Positions 3,001 through 52,900 of a stretch of DNA of 64,000 nt are shown here, piece after piece (the first letter of the stretch is position 1; each line of letters opens with the position of its first letter). Made by a program: the position numbers and the translations under genes. The notes under the pieces were generated by a model, which saw nothing but the letters and a program-made list of their open reading frames with translations, was not told the DNA's origin and did not search any database. The stretch is from Tomocerus qinae (taxonomy: Eukaryota; Arthropoda; Collembola; Entomobryomorpha; Tomoceridae): positions 57,352,909 through 57,416,908 of the forward strand of contig CM034547.1 in the NCBI GenBank assembly GCA_020055645.1. The letters are read 5' to 3'.

Positions 3001-6000
3001 CACCAAGAAAATTATGGAACAGTTTTCTGACACAGCTTCTTTACTAGCTATATACCAAATTACCTATTACAACTCCCACGGTTAAAAATTTGTGTCATAA
3101 TGCCCATCGTAATGTAGCCCACATTAGTAAGAATATATTGCATTTATACAAGTTACTTTAGGAATTCAATAGTGAAATAGAAGAAAAAGAAAATAGGAAA
3201 AGGTTGAAAAAAGATATTGACCGGTTAGAGAAAATGTACCATGTTGCATCTGTATTTGTCTACTCTTGTATGTATCATGGGAATCAAATTACAATCCAAA
3301 TAAAAGCTCATACCTACAGTAGATATAGAGAATCGGACGGAAATACAAATAGAAGTGAGTAGAAAAGACGGGTGTAGCATACATAATGACAGTGGGAACG
3401 TGAATACGTTTCTACGGTCGGTCGTCGGTCGGGTCGACCACACCAAACCCAGGCAGACTAAGAGAACATCAGAAATAGGAACTACCTAGTATTATTACGT
3501 AAGCACAATTGTACCCGGGGAGTCTTAGTTCGACCTATTAAATTACAATACCAAGCATAACACGAACAGTAGGATATAATTCTACTAAATACGGCTGAGG
3601 AGGACTTGGGTTAAAATACATGTCCTTCGATCTCTTAAGCATCGGAATGGAATTAGAGTCAGCTACCTAAAATATACCCGAGTCTCCGATAACTCCTATT
3701 TAATATCCTTCGCGATGCATTATTTCCACCTTATTCCGATAAAGAATTCTTGGGATTTCGAATTAATTTAATGTTTCAGCATGGATTGTACAGAATACAG
3801 AGAATAAATGTACGTTCTTTCTGGAGAAATCCATGGAAGGGAACAAACGGATGGCTTACGTACCTCTGTGTAAACAAATATATACAAATAGAGATACACG
3901 CCAGAATATTTACCCAGAATCTCAATCATCTCACTCTAAATCGGTTTCACTGGCACGCCAAGCCAACCAATAACACGAGCGTACTATTTATATAGAGGAT
4001 ATCTGTATTTTGTCCTACCAACTCACGGAAAATATTTTATTTTGCAACCAGGAAGCCTGGGTAGACAAGATATAGATTGCAGATCGTCGGGGCCTGATGT
4101 CTTTGTATGCATACAAATAAAGATTTACTATTGCTCCACTAGCTACTCTGCTCCAAGTTATCATTGTATTTGGAACGTGATCGTATTGTATTTTTCCTTT
4201 CAGTCAAAACTGAAAGTGTGTAAAGTGTAAACTTATGAATATGAAATGATTCTGTTGTGTAGCAATACACTGATAATGTCATTCTCCATAGATTACCCAG
4301 TGCGTAATCTCAATTCTGCGATTTACCAACAATGCCTACTCTAGTACACTCAGCTAATCTATTGCTTATTCATGTTTGCATTCGTGGAGTGTGTATTAAT
4401 ACATACGCAGCAGAGAATAGTCAGGTATTTTGTTTACCTTAGGTATTACTTGGTACTTGGTAGGTATTACGTTCACATTCCCCTTGGAATTTTAGATAAC
4501 CTCAAAATTTTAATATTGTCCTCTGGCATATTATTAGTTATGGCATTGACTACCAATACTTAGGCATCGTGTGTAATTAAAGTTTGGACACAATAGAGAA
4601 TCAGTCACAATTTTCTCTCCAGATACACGTACCATTGTACAGCAAAGGGTAACCCTTCCCTTCCTGTCTGGATGGCAATCCTGCAACGACAAGAGGTGAG
4701 ATAACTTTGGATCACGTCTTTGTGTCTGGAGACGTGAGAGGTGAGCTCGGAAATCAAGTGCAACGTTGAATGTCAGAAGAGACTTTAAGTGAACGCTGAG
4801 CACGTCTCCTATTTGTATTCCGAGGGCGTTTCCCTCTCCTCTAAAATCAAAACAGGAAGTTAAATAAAGTAACAAGTATCTCATCATGGAGAAAGAAAAC
4901 TTATTTTTTACACTCACGTAACGAAACGAGGTTAACTTAACACACCTACAGCGCCTATTATCACAGTCTACTCACCTACTAAAGGTCATTCCTAAAATCC
5001 CCGAAAATGATGTGATAATACATTTTAAGAAATTCATTTTGCTAATAAACCTTGATAATACGGTAATTACAATTTCAAACACAATTTATGGACTTTATTT
5101 ATTTATTTAAAAGACTAACTGACTCAAGTTTCCTATCCTCTTTTACAAATTAATTTCTCAACTGGAGAAAGTTTCGGTCTAACAAAGCTTTGTACTTTGT
5201 ACTCAATTCTCAACCAGCAGCCGTTCGCTCCATTTTTGCTAGGTATCTGCCATCTAACTTTTACTTCAACTTTCATCGGTGTAAACTTGTACTTTCTTTT
5301 CTTGTATTCTTCATCCTTGAAAATTCAAAAATGAAATATTATGAAAAACAAATACTAAATACTTCTCCATTGTAATCATTTCAATACACACGCATGAACA
5401 GGATCCCCATTAAAAACCTAATTGACATTAAGGGTAAAGTAGTATATAGTATAAATTACTTTGCACATCATGTAAACTGAGTTAATTGCTAATGGGAGGA
5501 TTGTATGATTTCAATATACTAAATTGTACAGGGGACTGCTGACCGTGAGTTACAGTTTTAAATGCAGCTTTCACGACGAGTTTTCACTTTTCACTTAAGC
5601 AGCAATTGAAAATTTTTTCTCTCTGAAACGTTGAAAAGAGTGCAAAGGTTGTTGGGTTGAAAATGGACATTAGGAAGACTAATGCATTAGAATAGAGAAG
5701 GTTTGTTACCATTTCCTTAAGATAAGGTATTAAATCTTGTATTCAAAATGGTATGTTGTTGAGGTGGAGGAGTATTTTAATTCCTGCTGTTGGAAGTGTG
5801 AGTAGTGATGTATTAAAATGGTGTGGAAAGAGAAGAGAATGGTTGGAGGTATAATACCTCTTTTGAATATAGCGTAACATACAAAAGTACTTAAGTAGAG
5901 GAGCGCAAATGGAGAATTCGCATAGAAAATGAAGGAAGAGGACGGGGAGAGAGGGAAGCCAAGCTGAAGTATCATCATTGTCACCTTGAAAGGAGAACAG

Positions 6001-9000
6001 TTTCATCATCATCACCGTTTCCTTTCTCTCAGTGAGTCGTCTCTTAGACTCCTTTTCACTATCTCTTCCATTCTTGGGTGAAAGCGACTGACTTGTCTGC
6101 AGTCGTCTACTTCTCCAAACGAACGTACTTTCCTCGTTGTCCTATTCAAAGTCATCATCATCATCGCCATCATCATCATATCACGCCATGGCTCGCTAAG
6201 CGAAAGGTCTTCCAGCACTTGCATCTAGTCCCTCCTCTATATCTCTAATAGTGTTGACTTTACAGTAGCTACTATCGAACCACCACTGGCTCAGGCATTA
6301 CAAAAAGGAAAACTAACAATAAGAATCCAAATAAGGATGGGAAAATGAAACAAGACGAGAGCCACGACCAGGATATGAGAAAATAGCGGAAAACTCTCTG
6401 AAACTCCTCGGCTAAAAACAGGAAACTATGAGCATGAACTATTCTAGTCAACTAACTTGTTCGTGTATAATTCAGATATACTACGCTCTAATACTCTAAT
6501 ATATTTACTTAACATTACAGCAGAGACTAACCATCACCAAAAACTTATGAACCAACTTTCTTCAAATGCTTTTCCTACCCTTCACCGCGCTTATTGTCTT
6601 CTCATTGTCATTACCTGTCATTAAATTTTTAAAGAAATATTACAACATACATCCGCAATAACTTTATTACAGTTACACCCTCACTACAGTTACAATTGCA
6701 ATCATTAATGACATTTTTACTTTTGTTAAATGGTAAATTCTCTGAATCTTATTTTGAACCCCACCTTGGCATACATAGCAAAGAGACAATGACACCTGCA
6801 TTATGAGTTGAATTTTAATTCACTAGCATTACTCATTTTCTAAATGCTGTTAATCTTATTTTAACATATTTACTAGTAATGGGAAATGCTTTGATTTAAG
6901 CATTTTATTGAACTCATAAAGTCAGTGATTGAGTCCTGCGATTACTTTGTACTGCTGCGCGTAATCCAGTAATACAGAATATAAAAAAACTGTTAATGGA
7001 CAAATGGTTGTGAATAACACAATTAGTTTGTAAAAGACACTGGTGAGGTGGAGTATCAAGTTGCACTTTGTTCTTCTGAAACTATTTGAATCTATTTCTG
7101 ACATATTGAAATTAGTGTACATATTGATTTTCTATGATGATTAAATAAGAGAATAAAGATGATAACACATTTAGAGAGTAAAGATTTGAAGGACATAATA
7201 TTTTTGGTAAAAGAATTAGAAAGTTGATAAAAGTTGTGGATAAAAGTAAAATAGATATTTTACATGTTGGGGGTAAGTGATAAATAGGTCGTGGTGGTAA
7301 AAGATGTGAGTTGTAAATGTGTGGAAGCACTTTAGTACAGTTAGTAGGTGCATCGCATGGTCTTTATGTTAGTTTGAATTACTACATTGTGTAAGAAGGG
7401 CGAAAAAAGTGGGTATGACGGGAATAAGTATGAAGTATGAAAGGAGTAAAACGAACTTTGCCCTCCTTAGCTGGAAGTTTGAAAGGATGTAAAAATATAT
7501 ATGAAGTATAGTTAGCCAATGAAGGGAAAGGCGTCTGTTCTGTCGGTTTGGATTGCTGTAGATTTTGTAAGGAAGAGTGGGGAGTCGGGAGTAAGTGGAG
7601 AAAGTATGTCGTCGTCCCTACATAGATAAGCATCCGTCCATTGTAAGTATTTGTATGAACTGGAAAGTACTTAGAAGCAGAATAGGGCTACATAGGAGTA
7701 AGTAATACATTATTATTATACATTATGAACTACATAAACTAGTCGTGATTGTGAGTCTGAGGACACACCTACAGAGTGAGGTGAACTCAACTAAATAGAC
7801 GAGAGTGAAAGGAGTGCTAGTTAGAAATGTATTGTTAGAGTCCAAGTGTATCGCACTGCTACTTATCGTATATACTATATACTAGGATGGTACGTAGTGC
7901 TATAGGTTGACTTTGATATGATAGTAGTAGTGAGTGTGGTGGCATGGCATGGCGTGTCATCATTGCCAACTCTGTAAAAACTCACCTCTCGAAATATAAA
8001 ATAGTTTCACGAGGGGCTTATAATCCTCTTTTCCTTCCACTATTACATTAGACCGAGTCTTATAAATCTGGGATGGTAGTAGAGAGGAGTAGTAGGGTAG
8101 AGTGGAGAGATAGATAGAGGATCTTCTTCACTTTAGCTTTCTTTTTTCAATTCAGTTCAGGGTCTTCCCCAATACGTCATCTTTCTCCACACTAGCAGGA
8201 TGCATCCTGACTCTATTTCATGACACTGTGCACGAAAATAAAATTTTCTCTGTCCCATTATGAGAAGTTGAGTTGAGAAGAGTAAGTTGAGTTGAGTCGT
8301 GAAGTGGGATTGGATTTAACTTTCAATATAAATTAATAACTTTGAGCTACTATGATATACTGGGAGAAAGTGGAGGATTTATTACTATTAGAGGATACTT
8401 TCAAACTTTCGGCATTTCAACCATATCTTGGCTTCTTAACGTTTTATTTCCTTCACTTTTGGATTGGCATACCATGTCATACCGTAACATAACATACCAA
8501 CCTAAGCCAATCCACATCCACTATCTTACAAGATACACATTTCTTTACCTTCTCTGGATGTAATGATACAGATGCACTTTGCTACGATCGTATAGTCTCA
8601 GACAGTTATACACATCCTTTTCTTTGCTTAAGTATGTACTCTGTCTGTGTATTAAGTACACAGGAGCTATAAAGGAGAAAGCAGCATGGCCATCATAGTT
8701 TCTCTGCCCTGACACAGTTTAACAGATTGTTCAAACTTTTATTTAAAACTTTGACAGGGAGTAGTGATGGAGCTTTAGAATAGAATTACGTCCTTTCCCA
8801 CTATGATGCAACTTTAATTCTTTTCTAATCTCCAAGTATAAAGATGAGAGTGGGGCCCACACTACATTGTCAAGATTAGATTTAACGTAATACATCAGCT
8901 TTTACCTACCTGCTTTCACTTTCCACTTTCCCTCGTCACGTTATCTTCTTCAGATTAGTAATCACTGCTGCCGAAAGAAATAATCGACACAAGTAGTCAA

Positions 9001-13629: not shown

Positions 13630-14269
13630 CCCTAACCCTCATGCATTCTTATTTACAATCCTACCAGCGCAGCGTTTCATCTTCATGTCACATACACACT
13701 TAAATATAAACGTGAAAACTTAACCATTTGGATCATAATACCCGTCTAAAGATAATGAAAAGGAATACAATTGGGCATATCCAAAGAATGGAGACATGCA
13801 GCATCTGAATGATAACTTAATGGCTAGTTCTCCAACATACATAAGAATTCCAAAGCTAAGCTAGTACTATGTGCCCAATGTCCAATGTATACTGTACACA
13901 TTATAAGAAGAAATTAAAAAAAATAGAACATATATTTGATATGTGGAGTAGAGTATTAAGGAGGGGTGGTAACTTTCAGAGCAAGAAGGATAAATACTGT
14001 GACACTTTGCGAGGTGTGCATAAATTGCGATACAATATTATTAGCTCAATATCGTAAACAAACGCAATGAGGGTATTGCTTATTATTAGTTTACTTTTCA
14101 AACAAGCCAAAAACTGTCCTCACTTCAATTTTGTTTGGTGATAATCTGACCTGAATCATAAATATCTGGGTAAGTACATTACTACCGTACTAACGACTTG
14201 TATCAGATAACGTTTTTTATATCTTAAAAATATTGCGATACTGTACCTAATATACCATTTAATTTGCAG

Positions 14270-15718
14270 TACAACAATGAGTCACAAAACATGTGCATCT
14301 TTGCCTCCACAAAAAAGGCAATATATTATATTCCAAAAGAGGTGGTAAGTACTTCATTTCTCTCCGAGTCATTTATTACTTTTAGGCATCAATCATCACT
14401 TAAAGTTAATTCAGTAAGAATAGTATACTTATTATTTTAAATTAACAGGAAGACATTTTGGAAATGTCAAAACATTTGACACCAGATGCTTACCACTGCC
14501 TGACTTCTGAAATTGTCAAGCGTAGTCCGTGCAGCCGCATCCAAATGAACTCTGCTAAAAATCTTATCGTGGAGATTAACAAGAAGCCAAAAGCTGCTAT
14601 GCCTCCTAATGAGGGTCAGGAGACGTCTGTGAGTAGGCCCTCCAACCCGATTGACCTCGGTGCAGCACCAGTTCCTGGCCCCAAAATTTTAAATTGTGGC
14701 TTACCTCATTTCCCTACCGTAGTCAGTTTAATTGAGGATGTTTAAAAATATTTAATGAGTTGGCAAGATTTTAATTACACTATTATAATTGGAAATAGGT
14801 GCCGTTTATTTACAGAGGTAATTTGATCGCTGAAGCTAAGGAGGTTTCTTTTGACGTAGAGAAATTAGAACTCCAGGGAAGTCATAAGCAAGCAGCGTCA
14901 TCAATTGCCGTGGTCAATGAAAAAGGCAAACTTTTACTGTGGGCAATTATAAATTATCCGAAAATATGCAAATATTTTACTAACCTAACAGGGATAACCA
15001 AGGAAATGGTAGCTAATGGAAAAACATTAGAGGAGGTTTGTGATTATCTTTTTTTATTTAATGATCTACTGGGATTACAATTACTTATTTTATGCTACTA
15101 CTCACTCATGAAATTTCCACGAAATTAAATACAAATTAATTTTAACAGACATTGCCTTATATAAAGTCGTGTCTAAAAGGAAAAGTGGTCGTTGCAACTG
15201 AAATACAAAAATATTTGGAGTCATTGGATTTGAATGCTAACACCGTTGAAGCTAGTCAACTAATCGACATTCAAGATTTTTACGTTGATATGAAAAAACA
15301 GAAAGTTGGAATGTCGTATTTAAGCAAGCATTTTTTTGGGGTCGACCGGCAAAACATAAATGGTCATCATTCGGAAATTATTGATGCCCGACTGACTATG
15401 CTGTGCTATCACCGGATGAAATGATTTTGAAAATCCACCCAAGTCTACAAAGTTTTCGCTGTCCTGAATTTGACGAAGAGCGATCTGCCGATGAAAAAGA
15501 AAAAGGAACATCTAAAATGGGAAAAATGTACCTGTGGGTATGCAAAGCCGAAAAAATATCGTTCTCATCTGCCAGAGCATTAGGGTATTTTTGGTAATGC
15601 AAATTCAAAACTTTTTGATGATGATAAGTGGGACTTTGGGGGATCAGCGACTCAAAGTAATGTAAATGATGACGAGTGGGGAGTAAGTATTTTTATGATA
15701 ACATTGGCTATTGGATGA
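14270..15718 (+). pseudogene. DEDDh RNA-exonuclease-like gene (REXO4/ISG20 type), broken
   Basis: Four exons join in frame at GT-AG sites: 14,270-14,344, 14,449-14,628, 14,799-15,035, and 15,149 onward. The first ATG in frame is at 14,291; no upstream exon was found. The product resembles the DEDDh exonuclease domain of REXO4/ISG20-type 3'-5' nucleases. An N-terminal segment (PKEVEDILEMSKHLTPDAYH) precedes the ExoI motif SFDVE (Asp104, Glu106 counting from the first exon), an SIAVVNEKG strand and an LTGI motif. ExoIII follows as HSEIID (His238, Asp243). The ExoII aspartate appears replaced by Tyr186 (QKYLESL where xxDLxxL is usual). Two TGA codons (15,422 and 15,428) and a TAG (15,581) then interrupt the frame. 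Beyond them the same frame still encodes a possible zinc-binding tail (CTCGYAKPKKYRSHLPEH) and an acidic end, closing at TGA 15,716-15,718. It is therefore a recent pseudogene, or a truncated protein of about 255 residues. It lies inside the 4.3-kb transposon. Confidence 0.65.
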
Positions 15719-15731
15719 CACATGATTAAAC

Positions 15732-15737
15732 AATAAA
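15732..15737 (+). terminator. AATAAA poly(A) signal of the exonuclease-like gene
   Basis: A canonical AATAAA lies 14 bp after the last in-frame stop of the exonuclease-like reading frame. This supports the idea that the gene once ended here, before the facing transposase. Confidence 0.45.
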
Positions 15738-16049
15738 ACATTATATTATAATTAAAATGAATTGATTATTTACACCATATTAGGATTGCTACCCAATAAC
15801 ATTACATATTATTATCATGCACTTTGAAATAATGTAAAAATGTAGTAATTATAAATTTTGAATCAATTAAATTGTCACTCCGGGGTAATTACCATTACAA
15901 ATCCCACTCGTGAGCTGTAAAATTTTGAATTTCTATCCTACACTCAAAAAATTATATAGTCTATAAAGTAATTGCATTCATTTCTACATCCAAATAACAT
16001 TACACATTATTGCAATTTACCATATAATTTTTCCATTAATTAAATTGTC

Positions 16050-16965
16050 ATTCAGTCATTCATTTAATCCAAATTTAGTTTTCATGGATTCTTGTACATT
16101 AACAAAAACACTCGAATCTTGGTCAGCTATCATTTGTGAGTAATACATCCCATGCATTTCTTCACTTTTGAGAAATCCTTCGACAATTACATCTGTTTCT
16201 ATTGAAGTGCTTGTTCCGTTATAGTTTTAAAACATTTGTGCGGAGAATCAGGATGAACTAAACAAGTGTAGCAGCATTTATTTCGAATGTCGATGTGCAA
16301 CAGTTTACCAGTTCGTACTCCGATGATAACCGCACAACCAGAAAGAGATTTGTATGAGTCTCCGTACGATAGCTTTCCCTAACTACCGTCACAACTTATT
16401 GCTATACATGGAATACCATCATAGTAAAGTTTTTTCATCTTCTAGGGCTAATCGTAGTTCTTCCTTGCCATTTTCTTTTAAATTTTGAATCAAAGATAGT
16501 TCTTGGTATTCATGTATTTTATATTCATTTGATTTGTATAATTTAAAATTAATTGGAGGGATATCCATTATTTTTAGTAAATCAAAAAGAGAATCATAGC
16601 CCCCACCAGATTCCATTGTTCCCCAAACTGCGGCAGTATTGATTGGTAAGGAATTGTTTTGAGAGTCCATCAAGACTGTAAACTGCCGACCGCAGTGGCC
16701 ACATGCAATGTGAAATCTGCGACGCAGTCAATCCATGTCTCTTTTAAAAAAATTTTAATCACTTTTTGAGGCAAAATTTCACATTCTTTTGTGTTTCTTG
16801 GATTAGTATTTGTAATGATTCGACTGAAACCATTCTTCTTCCATTAATGTCCCAAATTTCGTTCTCTTTTTTGCTTTGATTTTCTAGCACAACAGGAATA
16901 AGCTTTTTTGGCTTAAAGTTTTTAATTCTAGTCTTGATTGGTCTATGTCCGCATTTTTCACCCAT
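16050..16965 (-). pseudogene. decayed Mutator/Kolobok-like transposase (N-terminal half)
   Basis: The frame opens with ATG at 16,965. Four blocks follow in family order, split by stops and frameshifts. First is a GRRMVSVESL segment (16,965-16,759), typical of the start of the 'Mutator-like transposase' domain found in many invertebrate elements. Next comes NTAAVWGTMESGGGYDSL (16,673-16,419). Then, after a frameshift and an internal stop, comes GIPCIAISCDGS and SYKSLSGCAVIIG, the region that normally contains the first catalytic Asp. Last comes VIVEGFLKSEEMHGMYYSQM followed by an IADQDSSVF block. Similarity stops near 16,050, so the C-terminal half with the later catalytic residues is missing. 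Assignment rests on remembered family motifs, not on a search. Confidence 0.75.
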
Positions 16966-17074
16966 CGTGCAAAAAATCGTCTACCGGGGTGTAGCCGTTT
17001 GGGTATCCCACTCAAACGTTTGTATGCGAGTATCACAATACTTCTTGTCTGACTGTCTTGTATACAATAATATT

Positions 17075-17640
17075 GCCAATTAAATGAGGATTGTATATTT
17101 TGATCTATACGTTGATGTCTTGTCGAGTCTGGCTTCTTACTCTAGTTGACCACGGTGACACTGCTGAAATATGAATAATGAGTTACACTATTCATGCTTC
17201 ACGTTTTAAAAATAGGAATATCGTATCTAGTAATATGCAATAATAAACTATTCTGTTTACCCGAATTGCTATGTATGCTCTACGACGTTTTGAGGATTGC
17301 AAACAATGATCTTATTGGATTCCCAGTCAATTCATGCAACTAAACACAGTCGGTGACAATTACTGTTGAAATACAAAAAAACTAGTTATAATACTCCAAG
17401 ATGTAGTTTATAAAAATGATGATTTCGAAACTACTAATTTGCAATAAGAAATTAATCTTAATTCGCAATTTTTTACCCGTATCAGCTGACGAGGATTTCA
17501 AGATCAAACAGAATGATATTTTCGAAGGTTTGGACTCCTAGTCGAGTCTGGCTTCTAAATCTGGTTGACCACGGTGATAGTTACTGCTGAAACATGAAAA
17601 TATAATTGCAAAATTTGATGCTGCTAGTAATTTATATAAT
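17075..17640. repeat. three degenerate direct repeats, about 210 bp each
   Basis: The motif GTCGAGTCTGGCTTC, followed by GTTGACCACGGTGA and CTGCTGAAA, occurs at 17,122 and 17,541. A more diverged copy starts near 17,326, so the spacing is 204 and 215 bp. Sequence between copies also aligns loosely (the AGTAAT...GCAATAA part after each motif). The block lies between the transposase start and the right end of the 4.3-kb element. It could hold transposase-binding sites or simply be an old tandem duplication. Confidence 0.6.
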
Positions 17641-18268
17641 TAATATGTCACCTCGAATTAGTTCTCTTATACTTACCACCTCAATTTATCCTTTTCAGAT
17701 GTAGAGTTTGATGAGGGGCGAGGTCAAGAATTTTAGGGTTAAATGATTAAAAAATTAAAACTGATAGGAAACTGTCAGAAATAACATTTCGTAATTCTAA
17801 AGGAATGCACAATCAACAATTGTACAATTGTGTTTGTTGGTTGTATTTCCACCATTATTTATGAATACTCCGTGCTGTCCTCCCGCAATTTTTGTCGCAG
17901 TTCTTAGGCAAAATTTTGCATGTAAAATCTTTAAAAAATGATTTCAAGATTTTGGAAAAACGTAAAAATATAACAAAAATGCCATAAAAAAGAGGGGAAA
18001 AAATGAGGGAGAGCATGAGGCACCTTTTTTTGAATTTGTGTCTGCAAATGTGAACAAAAATTCAAAATATATTTCTTACATGTATTTCCCCACTCAAAAT
18101 CAAAATTTTCAAATTGAATTTTCGATGACTTAAAAAATGATTTTTGAAAATTGGGCTTTCATGCTCGTCTTAAAAATCTTTGTAAATTCTGAAATAGAAA
18201 ACCGCATGCCTGTACGTTTAGTCCATTGCTCTGAGTAATATACGCTGAAAGTCCCCACCCCTCCTTAA

Positions 18269-28600: not shown

Positions 28601-30773
28601 GGACTCATTGTCAGAAGAAACATTTCCCAAAGTTTCTTGAGGAGGAATTCCTAAATCCATTCATTAATTTAGACTAGATAATTATTAGCAGAGATAAATT
28701 TTATAAATTTACATCTCGAAATACAGAAGTAAACTTTCCTTTCACATTCCCTAAAAAATTCTTTAGTGGATTTCCATTTGAACTTTTATATGCATTTTTG
28801 GTTTTACTGTCACTTAAAATTCATTACTATCATTACCCAGAAATGCATCAACCAACGCCGCAATTCCTTTCATGGCTTGATGAAAAATGGATGGCAGAAC
28901 AAATAGACATGGGTGTTGGCACGGATCAACAACTGCTTCACTTGCAATAGCAAACTAATAATCAAACAAATGTAAAGTTACTAATAATGGCTGTTTTTAA
29001 ATAATATTTTTAAAAAATTAGTGATATAATAATTATAAAAAGAAGCATAAAAATTACGGAACCTGGAGAAAATTTTGAGTTTGGCTAATTATAGTGGGTT
29101 GGGTGAGCTCAACAGGATTTCCTAAGCAGTGGAGAAATCGAAACCAAGTTTGAACGACACCGTCGTCAGTCATGTCAGGAGGAATTAAAGTACTATCATC
29201 TTCCACTAAAACAACATTGTAATATGGCTGGAATATCAACTTTAAACAATACCGATTTGCATTTTTAACAAATACTTTTTGCTTTATACGTAGATAGTGA
29301 AGAAATAAATTACCTAACTTAATGTAATCTGGCCCATACATTATATTAAGCATTCGGCCTGTTAGGAGAAGATTAATTCGATTCCATTGATCAAATAAAT
29401 TAGAACGATGACGCCATGACCTGCAAGCCACTCGTAAGGTTTTCCATAAAGGAGGAGACGGAAATGATTTGCCACAAGATAATAACCAAACTTCAAAAAG
29501 AACGCTTAGAACTCGTTCACAAAGTTGATCTCCAATATCTTCCTTAATTGACGGAGGCGAAAGCAAAGCGTCATTAATGGCTATCAAAAACAGCAATATA
29601 CATTCCCATGTTTCTGTATCCAAAGAATCTGATGTTCGTATCACATTTTGTAATGTTCTCAGAACCCTGTGACAGAGAACTGCTTGTCTATTGATAGTAT
29701 CTTGAGCTAAAGACAAAGTAAACAACTAGTTACAATGGATTCTCTTTTTAATTTTTAACTTCAATTCAAATACCTAAATCACTCCGATATAGAAATGGCC
29801 AGACTTGCAAAGAATTACAAAACAATTTTCAACATTTACGAATACAATTTAGAATTATTAATACCCATTTGGACGTGACAGTAAATAAATTCTGTACTTC
29901 TTCATTACATAGGATTAACAAACACAAACATAGCTATTTACTTTTATAAATACTATAGCATAAAACGTAACACAAATAATTATTAAGTAATACCTAGTCT
30001 TTTGGAACAATCTTAGAAACAAAACAGAAGGAAGACGCGTCAAAATAGTTACGTCCGTTGCATGGTATTAAAGAAATTAAATTAAATTCACTACTTCCTT
30101 GCAATGAAATTATCTTTAACATACAAGTACTATAAGAAAATGAAAAGGAGGGTAGAACTTAATATTGAAGATTTTACCTTCACTTTTTCGAGGGGTAAAT
30201 AAATGATATAGGTGGTTTATCATTTTTCTAGAGTAGAAGTTGGCTCTCTCCGCAACTGGCTTTGGTACTGATATTTTGGGAATGGGAGCTAAACAAGATA
30301 ACCATTCGCAATAGATACTGACACAATCTTTAATAATTTCATGTTCAGTCAGTGGAAGGCTTAGACCAAAGCATACAACCTATGGCAAATGACAAACATT
30401 AAATAATGTACAGATTAAAATGTCCAAAGTTTAACAAAATTAGTCCCAAATATTTTTGACTAGCCACATATCAATAAGCCAAACTATGTAATTACTACAT
30501 ACTAAAGCTTTGGTTGAGTAGGACAAAAGAAAAATTGCATAATAAATCATTATAAACTTATACCTGTAGACACCATTCTACTTCATTATCAGTGTTAAAT
30601 GTACTGGGCAAAGGTGGCTGTGATATTCCTAAAGAAGCTACAATGTGTCGTACAACTGGAACTACAACATCTTTGGCTGCCTCTCCAGGGAGTCTATCCA
30701 GGACAGAAGCCCTGTCGTTGGAACTGTCAGTGTTGCTACCAGCTCCAGAAAGTGTAGTCCATTCCCAATACAT
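19654..30773 (-). CDS. RALGAPB: Ral GTPase-activating protein subunit beta
   Basis: Orthologue of the non-catalytic beta subunit that binds and is needed by the RalGAP alpha subunits, which switch off RalA/RalB in the cytoplasm. Complete 24-exon model, 1,480 codons (human about 1,494): 30564-30773, 30178-30379, 29314-29706, 29063-29205, 28837-28954, 28516-28650, 27445-27681, 27055-27272, 26738-26944, 26482-26617, 26224-26325, 25824-25913, 24147-24287, 23740-23966, 23025-23132, 22715-22901, 22345-22561, 21852-22107, 21233-21403, 20766-21129, 20461-20634, 20254-20380, 19900-20016, 19654-19816. All joins are GT-AG and keep the frame. The start is the ATG whose product begins MYWEW (human MYSEW). 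Conserved blocks include [104 protein letters not shown] and the C-terminal [20 protein letters not shown]. Residues about 1,110-1,430 correspond to the Rap/Ran-GAP-like domain. The last codons (CAG GTG TGA) could also be read as a donor, so a further tiny exon is not excluded. Confidence 0.97.
24493..25414. mobile_element. foldback DNA element in a RALGAPB intron
   Basis: Two arms of roughly 300 bp (about 24,493-24,790 and 25,115-25,414) are inverted copies. The outer 190-200 bp are about 90% alike, including GTACACAAAGTCTAGGCC and the following run through GGGCTATACGAATATT; the inner parts are more diverged. The tip reads ACACCGTGAGTCAGAAC on the right and is slightly altered on the left. 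No open frame of note lies inside and no target duplication is clear. It occupies most of the large intron between coding exons 12 and 13, oriented so that it does not disturb the splice sites. Confidence 0.8.
29206..29313 (-). other. 108-nt stop-free intron of RALGAPB
   Basis: This interval has GT and AG borders on the minus strand, is a multiple of three and contains no stop in the reading frame, so naive gene callers will read through it. Removing it joins ...MYGPDYIKL to [12 protein letters not shown], which matches the family ([23 protein letters not shown] in human). Retaining it would add 36 residues with no counterpart in the human protein. Confidence 0.8.
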
Positions 30774-32573: not shown

Positions 32574-35500
32574 ATGACCATCATAGTATTTTTATTGGAT
32601 ACGTCTGCTTCCATGAATCAACGAGTCTTTCTCGGTGGAAGACCTACTCTTCTCGATGTGGCGAAGAGCGCTGTAGAAACGTTTGTCAAGGTGCGTTTGT
32701 AATGTTTACACTATAATAGTATATTTTTATTACATTTTTGGCCGGATGATAATATATGTAAATGAGGGCATGTAGATTATACGCATTCTGTATTTTTTAC
32801 GTACTACTTTCCATTGTATATTTGTGTTGTTTTCTTATGCACAGGTTTAACTGAACATGGAGATCATGACTTTGCAGGGTTAACATTCTTAACATGTCAT
32901 ATTTTTAATATTTCAGGTACGACAAAGATCCATGGATAGCAGAGGAGATCGTTATATGCTTTTAACGTTTGAAGATCCACCGATAAATATTAAAGTAATT
33001 TTTTAAAGAAATTATTTCACATATATACAATATAGCTGAGTATATTTATGGGATGCTAATGTTTTGTGGTTCTGTACATGACATAGGCTGGTTGGAAAGA
33101 AAACTTGACTACTTTCATGTCCGAGTTGAAAAATTTACAAGCAAATGGACTAACAACTCTTGGTCAAGCACTGCGAAACACATTTGATACTCTTAATATT
33201 AATCGCATGCAACATGGTATTGACACATATGGACAAGGGCGATGTCCATTTTATTTAGAACCTTCCATAATCGTAGCCATTACTGACGGAGGTCAACTTT
33301 CCTCAAACTCAGGAGTTCAAGATGAGGTAAGCATCTACGTAACAAAGTTTTAGATTCGAATTAAAATACATAGAATTGTTTAATAATTGTAATTTCATTT
33401 ATAAAATGTTATTAGCTAAAAATGCATGGTTCAAGTCCCGGTTGCGAACTAACTAGAGAACCATTTAGATGGGATCAGCGTTTATTTAGTTTAGTGTTAC
33501 GAATGAGTGGTCAGCCATCTGGAGATAGAGAAACAGGTCTAGTTCCTTCAGATATTTCGCCGATTGATGCAATGTGTGAAGTTACTGGAGGTCGTTCATA
33601 TTGCATTACATCTCATCGCATGTTACATCAGTGTATTGATTCGTTAGTACAGAAAGTCCAAGCTGGTGTAGTCATTCATTTTGAAAAATTTGGAAATGAT
33701 CCTCCGCCTATTGCAATCACAGCGGACGGTAAGTTTTGCTTTGTCTCTTCTGTGGTTTCCTCACTTGTCGACTAATACTGTTTCTACATTTTTGTGTACA
33801 GGTTTAAAAATTGAAGAATCCGAGCTTGATTTAATTGAAGATAAAAATGGAGTTGTTAAGTTAGGATGGCATAATTCACGGAAAATGATCTACGTGCCTC
33901 GGTCCAACCAAAAAGGTGGTTTTGCAGGTGGCTTTTGGCCAATACCAGAGTCTTTTTGGCCGGATGCTTCTTTACCAACTTTACCTGCTCGTTCAGCTCA
34001 TCCAAATGTCAAGTTTGTTTGTACTCCTCATGAACCACTGGTGATAGAAAATTTCCCGTTTGACAAATACGAGTTGGAGCCTAGTCCACTGACTCAATAT
34101 ATTCTTGCTAGAAAGCAACCAACAGTTTGCTGGCAGGTTCGTGTAATTTCTGTCAACCGTATATTGGAGTGTTCAGTTAAATATCGTATCTACTTTTTTG
34201 TAATCTTTTACTTTGGTTTTTAACTCTTAGGTTTTCATGGCAAACAGCTCAAAAAATATTCCTATGGGTCATCCGTTCGGTTATCTAAAGGCTTCTACTA
34301 ACCTTACATGTGTAAATTTGTTTGTGATGCCTTATAACTATCCAGTGTTACTTCCTCTATTGGATGAGTTGTTCCGTGTTAGTCGGTTGCGACCTCACAA
34401 TGAATGGAAAGTCCAATTTGGAATCTACTTGGCGAACATGCCACCGTATTATGCAGGGCCATTAAAGCGGGCATTAATAAGAATGGGTGCAACTAATATA
34501 GCACAAACAATAATCGAAGAAAATTATCTTTCATATTCTGTTTTAAATTATCTTAAAAAAATTAAAAATCAAGCTAAAGCAGAGTATGATAGAACGTGCA
34601 ACGAAGTTGGTATTCGTGCTAAACTGGCGGAACCGAAAAGGAACATTACATCGTTTAAAAATCCATTCGATGTACCTCGTCATCAACTTTTAGATCATCT
34701 AGCACGATTAAGGTCTCATTTCCTTAAACCATCACAAATTCCAATTGTACAGCAAGGTAAGTACTTCGATTTTATTTGTTGTACAGCTTCATTATGTGGG
34801 GATTGTTTCTCTTCGATTGAAAAGTCGATGTTGCTATTTATTAATACTAATTAATTTGTGTATTAATATGATATTTTAGATTTATTGCATAATATGCCCG
34901 TGGGTCAAATGGGAAATTATCAAGAATATTTGAAAAAGGTGGCTACCCCATTGAGAGAAATCGAATCTACCCCTGTACGACAGCACATGTTTGGGAATCC
35001 TTTTAAAATTGATAAGCGTATGATAATCGACGAAGCAGACATCGACTTATTAGGACAAGGATCGAAATCCAAGAAAGATCCTAACCAAAATCAAAACCAA
35101 AACGCCACTAACCCTCTAGCTCCTATTCAAGCACAAAATGTGGGAAGTACCGCTGCTGTAGTTAGAGCACTAAAGAGAAAGTCTGGACCACTGCCAAAGG
35201 ATTACGTTTTTAATCCGAGAAAACATCGAAAGTACAGCAGTAATGATTCTGACAGTTCTTATAGTAATCCAGTGTCCCCTGCGGATACTGTTAGTGAAAG
35301 CGATACGGAAGAAGTATTAGAACCAATCGTCGTAGCTCCGAAAGAGGAACCCAAACCCATGGTTATAGATGAACCTGTGATTCCACCTCCCGTGGTTAAG
35401 TCTGATGTGCGCCATGAAGAGACAAGTGTCAGTGGTGTGAATGCGGAACCAATATCTTTCAACAGCGAAGGAAATTTTGATAATACTCATATATCTAGTA

Positions 35501-47900: not shown

Positions 47901-49945
47901 TACGTTGCATCCTTACTAGCTAATAGGTGCTACCTAGTCTAATAAGAATCAACATTTGTTTTACTGCTGATGTTGGGTTTAGTATTCTGTTTAATTTACA
48001 GGGATATCTTCGGCAGTGCTACATGCTATCTGTATCTCCTACTGGGTCTGTGCTGTTACCCATCTGGCAATATCCTTCACTAAACAATGAATTGCACATT
48101 GGACTTCCAGAAGGTTATTTTTATTGTTTGCAAGTACCTAAACTCTTTTTGTCAGCTTAGATATCCTAACAGTCATGTCCTGACTGAGCTTAAACATGCG
48201 AAGATGAATAAGCTGAAAATTAGAGGACTTTTTTGTCTCATTTTGCAATTCCTTTTGCCAACCGTGCACTGTTTTATAATAGGCTATTTTTGGGACATTA
48301 TCAATTCAAACAGGCAGAGATTACTAAAACTAAGTCTACTGTGTCGATCTGCATAATTTGTCGCGCCTGTAACTTTTACTACTTTTCATTTCTATGCTAA
48401 AAAGATATTACACATTTAAATGGTAAAATCGCAGCTTAGCTACTCATTATTTTTGGTAATTTATAATGACAGATGAATTCAGCCGGCCACAAATCAAAAT
48501 TTATAATATTAGCACGAGTTCATCCGATTGTAAGTATGGAGGAACATTCATAAAAGCACAATGAATATTTTAACGACAACTACACTGATACACATTATGC
48601 TATTTGAGGAATGTGAAGATGAATTGAAATTTGGAATTTTGTATGAATCTGTCTCACTGAAAATTCTGTACTCATCGAGAATAGTCTAGAACACAAAGAT
48701 AATTATAGTAATTACCAAATGTAGTCCATTTATGCCAAAGCTACCTTTTTAAGTCACTTTTTTGGTTTATGTTGATTTTTACAATTCCTGAATATGTTAT
48801 TATGTAGTCAATTATTTGAGAAGGGAAATTGAACAAAAACATACACTCCAGCATTATTATTGACATATACTATATTACTTTAGTCTATTTAATGTACCCT
48901 ACCCACTACACTTAGGTATTGTAATAATTCTATTCTAATTATTCACCCAGGTACTTTTAGAGATAGATTGCCAAATGGACCATGAAAAACAAAAAAACTG
49001 TTTGATCACGCAACAAAGTGAACTATGTAAGAAAAGCCAAATAGAGTGAGCTGTATCAGCGACGGTGATATGACATATACGGACACAGAAGAAAGACAAT
49101 AGGAATCCAAAATTATGAATATTATGTCTGATTATACAGGCACATGTAAATGTTATTTGTTATTGGATAATAAATAGAGAGAACCAGCTCACCTTGTCTT
49201 GTAGCGTTCTTTTGCGCTCCGGCTTAACCAAGTATGGACTGTCTTTCTGTATCATTTGATCTACCAGATGATTAAAGGTATATCCATCGCCGAGAGTGTG
49301 GTGTAGGCGGAAAACCAAAATACTTTGGTTTCCCTTGTACCCATTTAGCAAAAGAATTTCCCAAAGAGCAGATTCGTTAGGTAAAGGTGCAGTCATGATA
49401 TCACCGATAATCCTCTGTAATTCATCTTCATGGGAGTTGATGTCATCCGTGTAATGCTCACTAAGTCGAAAATCATGAATTTTGCGAATATGTCTTGTGA
49501 TGTCCACTTTGACGTCTTTCCAGAAGAAATAGCCCCCAAAAATCACAGGAACTTGTCTAAGTCTGAGATATTTGTACTGATCTTCGTTGGTAGTGACATC
49601 CAAAACGTGTCTTTTAAAGCCGTCCCGTAGAGTTTCTGTGTCAATATTTCCTTCGACATTGAATAATGTGACGTTAGCAGCGTAGGGTTTAGTGTAATAT
49701 TCGTCTACTGCAAAGATACTGTCATATCCGGTTAGCAGATCTTTGAGATCTTTTCTATATCTTTTTGCTAGGAGAACTACAATCCCTTTGAAAATGGACA
49801 AGGGAACTAAAATAAGAATAACAATAGGTATTATAAAAACAGCTAGGACGAGAGATGTGAACAGGGAGACTGCGGGTTTGTTCGGAGACTGATAAGTATC
49901 TTCCTTCCCCGAAGTAGGGACAGTTCTACTTTCTGGAGCTGGCAT
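41911..49945 (-). CDS. WS/DGAT-type O-acyltransferase, membrane-anchored
   Basis: Four exons (49193-49945, 44642-44961, 44226-44521, 41911-42161) join in frame to 539 residues. A hydrophobic segment at about residues 27-58 predicts an N-terminal membrane anchor, and a basic patch (KRYRKDLK) follows. The active-site motif HHxxxDG of wax-ester synthase/diacylglycerol acyltransferases is present as HHTLGDG (residues 215-221), with the usual preceding strand (SILVFRLHH). The C-terminal domain shows the NHWGVGLFKMPL element and an FTSIPAY...GLWKVFG segment that fits the WSD1 C-terminal domain. Such enzymes esterify fatty acyl-CoA to alcohols or diacylglycerol at the endoplasmic reticulum. Which acceptor is used here is unknown. 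The introns are unusually large for this window (4.2 kb after exon 1, 2.1 kb before the last exon). The stop is TGA after ...RTEGFA. Confidence 0.88.
44962..49192 (-). other. 4.2-kb first intron of the acyltransferase
   Basis: Bounded by a GTGAGC donor and an AG acceptor. It holds no exon I can recognise. Several 65-100 codon frames lie on both strands, but none shows family similarity. Confidence 0.6.
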
Positions 49946-52900
49946 TTTTGCAACTATCTCCTGGTGTCTAACAAGATTTTCCTTCTCATCAATCAGTCTT
50001 AATGGAAAACAGTCCGGAAAACCTTGGGGATCTTTTCAAAGGGAATTTGCACGATGAGATTTAATTCACTCAAGTTTCAAGTTCAATTTCTATTTGCACA
50101 AAGACTGTTTAGAATCACTTTGTAAATTGCAACTTGGTAATAACGTGTAACTATATGTTAATGCAGTTGAATTATGCAAGTCCGTCTTGGACTCTCGCTG
50201 AAATGAGACTGACGTTTGAGGTGCACGAATTTACAAGTCAACAGAAGTGAAGAGGTGAGGTGAGATAATATTTTTGACTCGCTCTTAGTTTTCTTGCATA
50301 TCCTGCACGTATACGGTGTCTACGTACGTGTGCATCCTACACGGAAAGTACAGGCCACTTCTCCATACCAAAACAACAGGTTGGGTTGAGACGATGAGAG
50401 TTGAGACTGGCCATTCATTACTAGGCATGTAACTGTATAGTGTATATAGCAATGCACATTGTCGGTTTATTATGCTAAGGGTGGAGAGTAAATGCTAAGT
50501 GATGGTCAGTCATATACAATGGAAACATTTACTATTTATATCGCCCTACTATACTGTGCTACTAATTGTATAACAACTATAATATTATATACCAGCTTAT
50601 TATTATACTTTTAATAGTTGTTTCAAGACAGAATTTAAGAATAGACCACATAAATATTGTAATTTTAAGAGACCAGAGGTACCCAAAGATTTAAATGCTG
50701 TCTCTCCAATACATGACTAACTTATATTGTTGTATGCAGAATACAATCAACCAGCATTATCAACACATCTACTTTAACACTTTGCCTGCATTACACTAAA
50801 TTGGAATTCCACATTTTGGAAATTATATTAGATAAACACTAAAAAACAGGAAATACTTATCACGTTAATAAGCGTAATATTGCATTGTTTACTTTCTGCA
50901 TCCATAACTATTGTGATATTAGTACGAATGTTTGAAGGTACGTGTTATCTATGTCTAGGTATGTTCCACTGTGATATTATGTGCATCGTGTGCCTTATAG
51001 AAACAGGAATTGGCTTCCAAATACAATATTTGACGTATGGTTAGAGCTAAAACAATAGACGTAACAAATGACCTTTTCTTAGACTTACTCTGGCTTTAGA
51101 AACAATAATATTTGAATTGATATCTTAGAAACAATATAAGTTTATTTGTAAAATCAAAAATCAATGAAAAACTGAAACAATAGAACATATACGAAGATAA
51201 TGCACATATGAATGCATATAAAACATAATTTAAATTGTTCAGTTTTATTCAGGGAGATTAAGGAGTCATATATCTACGGTTGGTCATCATCATTGTACTC
51301 TATGTATATGATATCCTATTATGTTGCTCATTTTTACTCGCCACCCATTAGATGTTACATGCCATTGTTATTGTCTAGAGACGCATGGCAAAATCATTGA
51401 AGGATGAAGAAAGAACATTTCGCATGTGTTAAACTGCTAAAACTTCATGTACTTACAATTCTTAACCATTTCATCTTTTAGCTTCAGGTAAACTAAGGTT
51501 CGTTATGGTAAAGCATTTGTTGAACCAACGTGATTACGTGAATCATCAGGAATTTATATTCAGATAGTTCAAGTTGTATGATATTAGTTTCAAGTTTTAA
51601 TTTTGCTAGACAAAAAGTTCTGTTGTAAATCGTAGGATTAAGTCGCGAAATTATAAGGCTTGCCATTTTCAACCTATGTCCTAGATAAACATTACTGTTA
51701 TTACAGCGTACACGTCTGTCATACGCCTTTTTGTGTTAACATGTAATGAAATGCTGTAAGCCTTGTATGTAGATTCGAATCATTTGAATCTTATTCGTGA
51801 TTAACCAGTTCGCGAATTTTTAGATCTAATTTCTCCAAACTACGTAAGCATTCTCTTGAGAAGAAGTCTTGATAAAGCGGGGATCCCAGAAATGTTAAGG
51901 GATTCCCTGATTCCTTATCGAGTCTAAGCATGACAGTATTCATGCAAAACGAAACGAACACTTAAATATATAAAATTAAATATTAAATTGTTGCATCTCA
52001 AACACAGGTACATGAAACAGGTTTCTTAATAAATACTTTGCAAATTGCAAAAAAATCTCCTTACAGGTTACCCACTTGTAGAAAATTGGCCAAACAAAGA
52101 TTTTGCATCTTGAGAGATACAAGAATACGCGTGTAGAAAATGCTTCACCTTACACTTAACTATGCTATGATGCTAAAGACTATGATGCGGTTCATTACGT
52201 CACTCATGTGTACTAAACTGGATTAAAATGAGATTGAATAAATTAAACTTGTTTACCAACTGTTTATTTGCATCCTACTCGTAGTTTTCTTGCTCTTGAA
52301 ACTCGGGCGTGGGTTTATGTGTTTGTGAGGAATACCACAAACAGTCGATCAGTCTCATCGAACTAATCGTAAACAAGAAAATCAATGTATAAGTCGTCAT
52401 TAGATTCAATGAATTGTCTGTATTTTCATTCACGTCATTCTTAAGAACCTGATCATGTTTAATATGCTCATCTCAGAGTTTTCTCGATTATAAGCACAAG
52501 GATTATAAGTATATACAATATTATCAAGTGAAGTGTTAATATAGTATTGTGCATTTTTTGTATCTGGAACAAAGAAGATCGTTCTTAAAACTTACTGCAT
52601 AGGTACCTTACGAAAGATCAGTTGGACAATCCCCATATATTTACGTAATTTCTGTTGATTCATATCTGTACCAAGAACAACATTACCAACTTTGTCCAGT
52701 TCAGATGCATTCTGCCTTACAAGACGCTAAAAACAACTTTCCACTATTTTTTGCCCTCTACATGGAAGCTTTTAAACTTGAATAGCCATCAATACTAAGT
52801 ATTTGAAGATTTTTGGGCTGGATTTTCCCTGTTATATACAGAATATTTTCGGGAAAACATGTTTCATTATGACTTGACGTTTTGCACAGGAAAAAGTAAG

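Follow-up and report, generated by a model that had tools for sequence, protein, structure and literature searches.

In a stretch of 64,000 nucleotides from the collembolan Tomocerus qinae (GenBank assembly GCA_020055645.1, contig CM034547.1, positions 57,352,909 to 57,416,908; hereafter the window), TTAA and 20-bp inverted ends (18 of 20 positions matching) bound a DNA transposon of 4,305 bp at window positions 13,960-18,264, inside which lie the relics of two converging genes, a transposase and a DEDDh exonuclease. Our preferred reading, to which we give a probability of roughly 0.55, is that this element is a 4.3-kb deletion derivative of Kolobok transposons whose parents carry three domains, and that two of these, the DEDDh exonuclease and a lambda-exonuclease-like nuclease, would process DNA ends. 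A transposase alone is usually regarded as sufficient for cut-and-paste transposons. Here, two exonucleases of opposite expected polarity were retained while synonymous sites neared saturation, which makes the role of accessory nucleases in DNA transposons directly testable.

The borders of the element are well defined. The top one of 36 inverted-repeat pairs in the window (13956-13979 and 18245-18268; 24 nt including TTAA, 92% complementary) contains both ends, and two longer pairs listed for the window are just 72-73% complementary. The left terminal inverted repeat (TIR) starts with 5'-GG (13960..13979, + strand), the right one ends with CC-3' (18245..18264, - strand), and TTAA target site duplications, read from the sequence and checked in the flanks of copies, adjoin them at 13956..13959 and 18265..18268. 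A TIR pattern of 24 positions, two of them free and with up to two mismatches tolerated, matched the genome 92 times forward and 84 times in reverse (176 matches), and its reversed control 0 and 0 times. The window element has at least 35 matches in the genome, of which at least 34 are full length and 96.9-100% identical (copy counts are lower bounds, with 32 of 347 candidates scored). TTAA, the target site duplication characteristic of Kolobok, is present on both sides in 31 of the 34 full-length copies; the remaining three are flanked by ATAA/ATAA, TTAA/TTAT and ATAA/TTTA. Comparison of the 300-bp flanks of copies between loci gave no similar pair at E 1e-5. The GG...CC termini of the window family, which are also found in a copy of subfamily C (L041), agree with the 5'-RR and YY-3' rule described for Kolobok termini (PMC9587614). 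The initial annotation, which had described a single transposon with matching ends beside TTAA and had asked whether full copies elsewhere share its borders and duplications, is thus confirmed; the opposite candidate, two ends from different insertions, was rejected, as both ends are common to the 34 copies.

Measured to its nearest copy with gaps left out, a copy differs by 0-7 substitutions per 4.3 kb in 30 of 34 cases, by 9 and 12 in two, and by 60 and 64 in the outlying copies L035 and L038; because most copies differ by so few substitutions, recent activity of the family follows. The first 100 of the 176 end matches form 45 TIR pairs, with 10 of the 100 unpaired, and the pairs measure 4.26-4.32 kb (37), 5.99-6.00 kb (six), 7.8 kb (one) and 12.0 kb (one). 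A DEDDh exonuclease is enclosed by all 45 pairs. The suggestion that the exonuclease is resident in the transposon family is therefore upheld, both by these pairs and by its conservation across subfamilies; ends lacking the exonuclease, which had been named as evidence to the contrary, were sought among the 45 pairs and none was found.

All 34 short copies look non-autonomous from the state of their reading frames. The exonuclease of the window copy, on the + strand, has a possible first exon at 14277..14344 (ATG and GT donor, no domain), predicted from sequence only, and a possible second exon at 14447..14745 without a Pfam match, which is also open in 6-kb copies (a frame of 95 amino acids (aa) in L046 and L047). 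Homologous to L047:1157-1393, the exon at 14799..15035 supplies catalytic residues one and two (DxE); 29 of 34 copies are free of out-of-frame indels in it, and the other five have one or two. The last exon (15149..15686), which holds the third Asp site, the His, the fourth Asp and an acidic Trp-Glu tail, is frameshifted and contains stops; at least one out-of-frame indel relative to L047 is found there in 34 of 34 short copies, all of which moreover have Tyr at the third catalytic Asp site (TAT codon at 15212..15214, + strand, in the window), where 6-kb copies and other subfamilies have Asp. Against Pfam RNase_T the window exonuclease scores E=1.1e-4 and 23.2 bits, slightly below the cut-off of 24. 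On the minus strand, the N-terminal part of a transposase (16065..16965) is likewise interrupted by frameshifts and stops, with at least one out-of-frame indel relative to L047 in 34 of 34 short copies; its frame matches the Mutator-like transposase PF20700 at E=8.7e-12 and keeps two of the catalytic sites, the first and second Asp, together with a CCHC zinc finger, the CxxH and the third catalytic residue (E) having been deleted. Alignment to L047 places the internal deletion at 15943..16064, where, relative to the 6-kb element, about 1.8 kb are gone (element positions 1-1985 correspond to L047 343-2303, and 2105-4305 to 4127-6336), and with them the transposase C-terminus and a YqaJ/lambda-exonuclease-like nuclease. 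An intact, autonomous window copy was rejected on account of the dead exonuclease site and the indels in both genes. The transposase relic described in the initial annotation is thus real and of Kolobok type, and the exonuclease beside it, taken there for a gene, is a relic too.

Relatives of about 6.0 kb with the same ends, as well as other subfamilies, carry a Kolobok transposase and, downstream of it, a lambda-exonuclease/YqaJ-like nuclease, with the DEDDh exonuclease converging on them from the opposite strand. The content of two genes first proposed is correct for transposase and exonuclease, and incomplete in that the full-length element has this third domain, which is deleted in the window copy. 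In L047 and other subfamilies Pfam finds PF20700 and then a YqaJ/Viral_alk_exo domain, and the second nuclease matches solved lambda-type exonucleases (3syy at 7.8e-11, lambda exonuclease 1avq at 5.5e-7). In some subfamilies, we infer, splicing unites transposase and second nuclease in one protein. Between the two frames of subfamily C (L041) lies a stretch with splice-like borders, so that the fusion is only a prediction there; in subfamily F (L048) the nuclease shares one 440-aa frame with the transposase end, and in L049, which has no exonuclease, transposase and nuclease occupy a single 1,024-aa frame. Some 6-kb copies are damaged (two stops in the L047 transposase, a frameshift in the L046 exonuclease), and open transposase domains are present at other tallied loci. 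By pattern, the second catalytic D, CxxH and E were found in A, B, C and L049, the E being missed in F; the first D is visible in the transposase alignment, where its pattern missed four of five, and a CCHC zinc finger, a trait of the KolobokD/E/P/5 group, follows it in five of five (A, B, C, F and L049, by pattern). The relatives, with PF20700 and these motifs, thereby possess the C/DxxH DDE transposase of the Kolobok superfamily.

To count domain combinations, 74 transposase loci were typed by hand from 121 transposase matches, window-type short copies and second pieces of a locus being left out, together with at least two weak matches (C4:115128 and C1:102489279, the latter with an exonuclease present). 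Forty loci have transposase, YqaJ and exonuclease, ten have the exonuclease and no YqaJ, 22 have YqaJ and no exonuclease, and two have the transposase alone, so that the YqaJ-like nuclease is present at 62 of 74 and the DEDDh exonuclease at 50 of 74. A stricter distance limit of 6.5 kb gives 38 three-domain loci and 24 with transposase and YqaJ. The loci without an exonuclease numbered 34 after two queries and 22 after a third, and two of the 12 loci so gained have the exonuclease 6.6 and 6.8 kb away (limit 8 kb, earlier 6.5 kb). Among the ten loci with transposase and exonuclease, one (C1:136904976, in L038) belongs to the 34 short copies, and another five are derivatives 4.26 kb long that share its ends. 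Outside the tally, 18 YqaJ matches, including C1:99140269, have no listed PF20700 nearby, some of them lying near exonuclease matches (C1:82560682, C10:26477, C1:75624884); these may be either degraded elements or other genes. A multi-copy group of exonuclease exons with no listed transposase nearby (C5:8311801, C3:982290, C5:341284, C4:5840509 and similar) is perhaps another deletion-derivative family.

The exonuclease belongs, by sequence and by modelled fold, beside ISG20, ISG20L2, PAN2 and SDN1, in agreement with the REXO4/ISG20 type recognized initially; published work likewise places REXO4, ISG20 and PAN2 in a single cluster (PMC3985635). In an alignment of five subfamilies (37-54% identity to A), D19, E21, D101, H153 and D158 are common to all five, and the five DEDDh catalytic residues are kept in each of the eight subfamilies examined. 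A profile of five exonucleases gave 13 hits in the PDB, led by ISG20L2 (2.1e-12), ISG20 (1e-11), SDN1 (5e-7) and PAN2, and exuperantia, TREX and ERI1 were not among these 13. Foldseek, run on an AlphaFold model with a mean predicted local distance difference test score of 69 (71-92 in the core blocks, with a read-through intron included as a low-confidence insert), placed ISG20, ISG20L2, PAN2 and SDN1 at all of ranks 1-14; ISG20 matched with a template modelling score of 0.77 by target and 19% identity, an ERI1-type structure appeared first at rank 41, and TREX was not among the 50 ranks shown. The L047 exonuclease also matches RNase_T above the cut-off (33.2 bits). With ISG20, REXO4, PAN2 and SDN1 the transposon exonuclease shares the DEDDh fold and the five catalytic residues, and it differs from them as follows. 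The ribose hydroxyls are contacted by Arg53 in ISG20 and Arg185 in SDN1 (PMC9157404, PMC6123492), and change of Arg185 to alanine much reduced SDN1 activity (PMC6123492), whereas the site aligned with this Arg is Phe, Tyr or Asn in eight of eight subfamilies. Moreover, seven of eight have an acidic C-terminus with Trp-Glu (..DDEWE, ..DEDDWE; e.g. L041:2181-2205 on the + strand and L048:3108-3132 on the - strand), which is perhaps a docking tail.

At the level of coding sequence, comparison between subfamilies shows the exonuclease to be under purifying selection, a point on which the initial annotation had asked for a check. The ratio of nonsynonymous to synonymous differences per site (pN/pS) in bootstrapped pairs is 0.22 (0.17-0.28) for F-G, 0.25 (0.19-0.32) for H-I and 0.39 (0.32-0.47) for A-B, although Nei-Gojobori counts on such saturated pairs are a guide and not exact ratios. 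For F-G the transposase has pN 0.13 and pS 0.68, close to the exonuclease ratio.

With regard to function, the short copies, whose own transposase and exonuclease genes are dead, would be mobilised by proteins made elsewhere, and the exonuclease, if needed, would then act in trans; the spread of 34 copies in which this gene is dead amounts to a natural experiment. We propose that the 3'-5' exonuclease and the lambda-exonuclease-like domain (expected to be 5'-3') process DNA ends during excision or donor-site repair, after which the break might be filled by copying, or the ends made fit for joining. The absence of the ribose-contacting Arg makes strict RNA specificity doubtful, and the usual presence of a DNA-type nuclease beside the exonuclease (at 40 of the 50 tallied transposase loci with an exonuclease) suggests that the two cooperate on DNA. 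Several points weigh on the other side. An RNA substrate is suggested by the nearest solved relatives of the exonuclease, most of which are RNA exonucleases, and ISG20 itself favours RNA, yet cuts single-stranded DNA as well (PMC9157404). The loss of the Arg is read from a distant profile alignment; Pfam RNase_T is matched at E 0.1 or better in just two of five subfamily members, and in an NCBIfam scan of the exonuclease every hit was far below the model cut-off. Among the 40 three-domain loci, many are not independent cases but copies from a few subfamilies, and the 22 of 74 loci at which three queries found no exonuclease mean that it is not required by every Kolobok element here.

The same kinship with RNA exonucleases, in combination with purifying selection, could instead point to an enzyme that trims or destroys host small RNAs or other RNA of a silencing pathway, much as SDN1 trims microRNAs in plants. 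Since this would have to be reconciled with the missing Arg in all eight subfamilies and with the DNA-type nuclease alongside, we regard such an RNA role as unlikely, if worth keeping in mind. In a divided version, which we consider improbable, the SDN1/ISG20-like 3'-5' enzyme would act in counter-defence by trimming silencing small RNAs or transcripts and the lambda-exonuclease-like domain would serve transposition, so that one DNA transposon would carry both a DNA-end-processing and an anti-silencing nuclease. Conservation of the acidic C-terminal end beyond the catalytic core in seven of eight subfamilies might also indicate that the protein is a partner of the transposase, binding nucleic acid or protein, with catalysis of little weight; a structural role alone would not need catalytic residues, and the invariance of all five in eight of eight subfamilies leaves this quite improbable.

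The history of the exonuclease gene was followed on an unrooted tree of 14 transposases, from which L058 was left out for a large gap. Seven rows with an exonuclease cluster with two that lack it (support 98/97), and five rows without an exonuclease fall outside this group. One gain of the DEDDh gene followed by two losses fits this clade but is not proven by the unrooted tree. Several independent captures would account for the at least three changes of the exonuclease label that the tree needs, a number reached or undercut in 35 of 500 shuffles, and for the absence from two of nine clade rows; against them, the eight exonucleases align end to end, seven with the tail, and a C-terminal exonuclease-like remnant downstream of L051 (L062; 34 residues, best E 1.6e-4) makes a loss there probable, so that we hold multiple capture to be quite doubtful. 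In the tree of the exonucleases, A-D are deeply divided from F-I, as they are among the transposases (I being without a transposase row). A useless passenger, caught once by chance from a host gene, is very improbable, for although 34 of 34 copies in the most numerous family seen carry a dead exonuclease, and none was found at 22 of 74 loci, the gene retains pN/pS of 0.22-0.39 across near-saturated synonymous sites and repeats the deep split of the transposase tree. Searches for relatives outside the transposons gave little: PF00929 yielded three exon matches in the genome and says little on a host source, because it missed the transposon exonucleases as well; a search for phage relatives gave four weak hits (best 2e-3, 30% identity), and none of 34 pattern matches in viral contigs was a relative.

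Both nucleases have precedents, and the exonuclease is not, as the initial annotation had supposed, foreign to TTAA-using transposons. KolobokD is a Kolobok lineage with a DEDDh exonuclease gene, and KolobokE, a separate lineage, has a lambda-exonuclease-like PD-(D/E)xK nuclease downstream of its transposase (Kojima and Bao 2022, PMC9587614). As described there, KolobokD shares with the elements studied here the TTAA duplications, the 5'-RR/YY-3' ends, the DEDDh exonuclease gene and a CCHC zinc finger that follows the first Asp. Its authors, using other searches, likened its exonuclease to exuperantia, TREX and ERI1, whereas that of the elements studied here is nearest to ISG20, ISG20L2, PAN2 and SDN1; moreover, the published description mentions no lambda-exonuclease-like domain for KolobokD in the part consulted. 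L049, with its single long frame, is an element of the KolobokE kind, to which the exonuclease-bearing elements add a DEDDh exonuclease on the opposite strand. KolobokP and KolobokH (PMC9587614), too, are Kolobok lineages that encode a further nuclease or helicase, but theirs is a His-Me finger nuclease, accompanied by long terminal direct repeats, or a RecQ helicase, and neither was found in Pfam scans of eight proteins of the elements here. Because both nucleases are already published in Kolobok, this is not a new kind of element; it unites what had been described for KolobokD and KolobokE separately. In a literature search that did not cover the supplement of PMC9587614, no description of a Kolobok element with both nucleases came up. 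What our analysis adds is the co-occurrence of the two nucleases, the evidence that selection acts on the exonuclease, and the affinity of the latter to the ISG20 side; the same search turned up no paper on these points.

Some copies lie in pairs. At C2:44604838-44616836, two 6-kb copies form the 12.0-kb head-to-tail pair, with TTAA at both outer ends and AA alone, no TTAA, between the inner ends (L047:6337-6338), a junction that recalls end-to-end joining or a circle and is unlike insertion into the TTAA of a neighbour. Head-to-tail pairs of short copies with one TTAA between the members are present in L022 (C2:36477283-36485896) and L029 (C2:66309131-66317733), their members differing by 4 and 1 substitutions, respectively; insertion into the TTAA beside a copy already there would explain these two. 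In L039 (C5:20963007-20971577), two inverted short copies with 0 substitutions between them lie 29 bp apart, and TTAA flanks each. Elsewhere in the window, host exons encode the RALGAPB N-terminal domain (29054-29725, - strand), the INTS6 beta-barrel (33672-34854, + strand) and a wax ester synthase/DGAT (WS/DGAT acyltransferase; 49160-50035, - strand).

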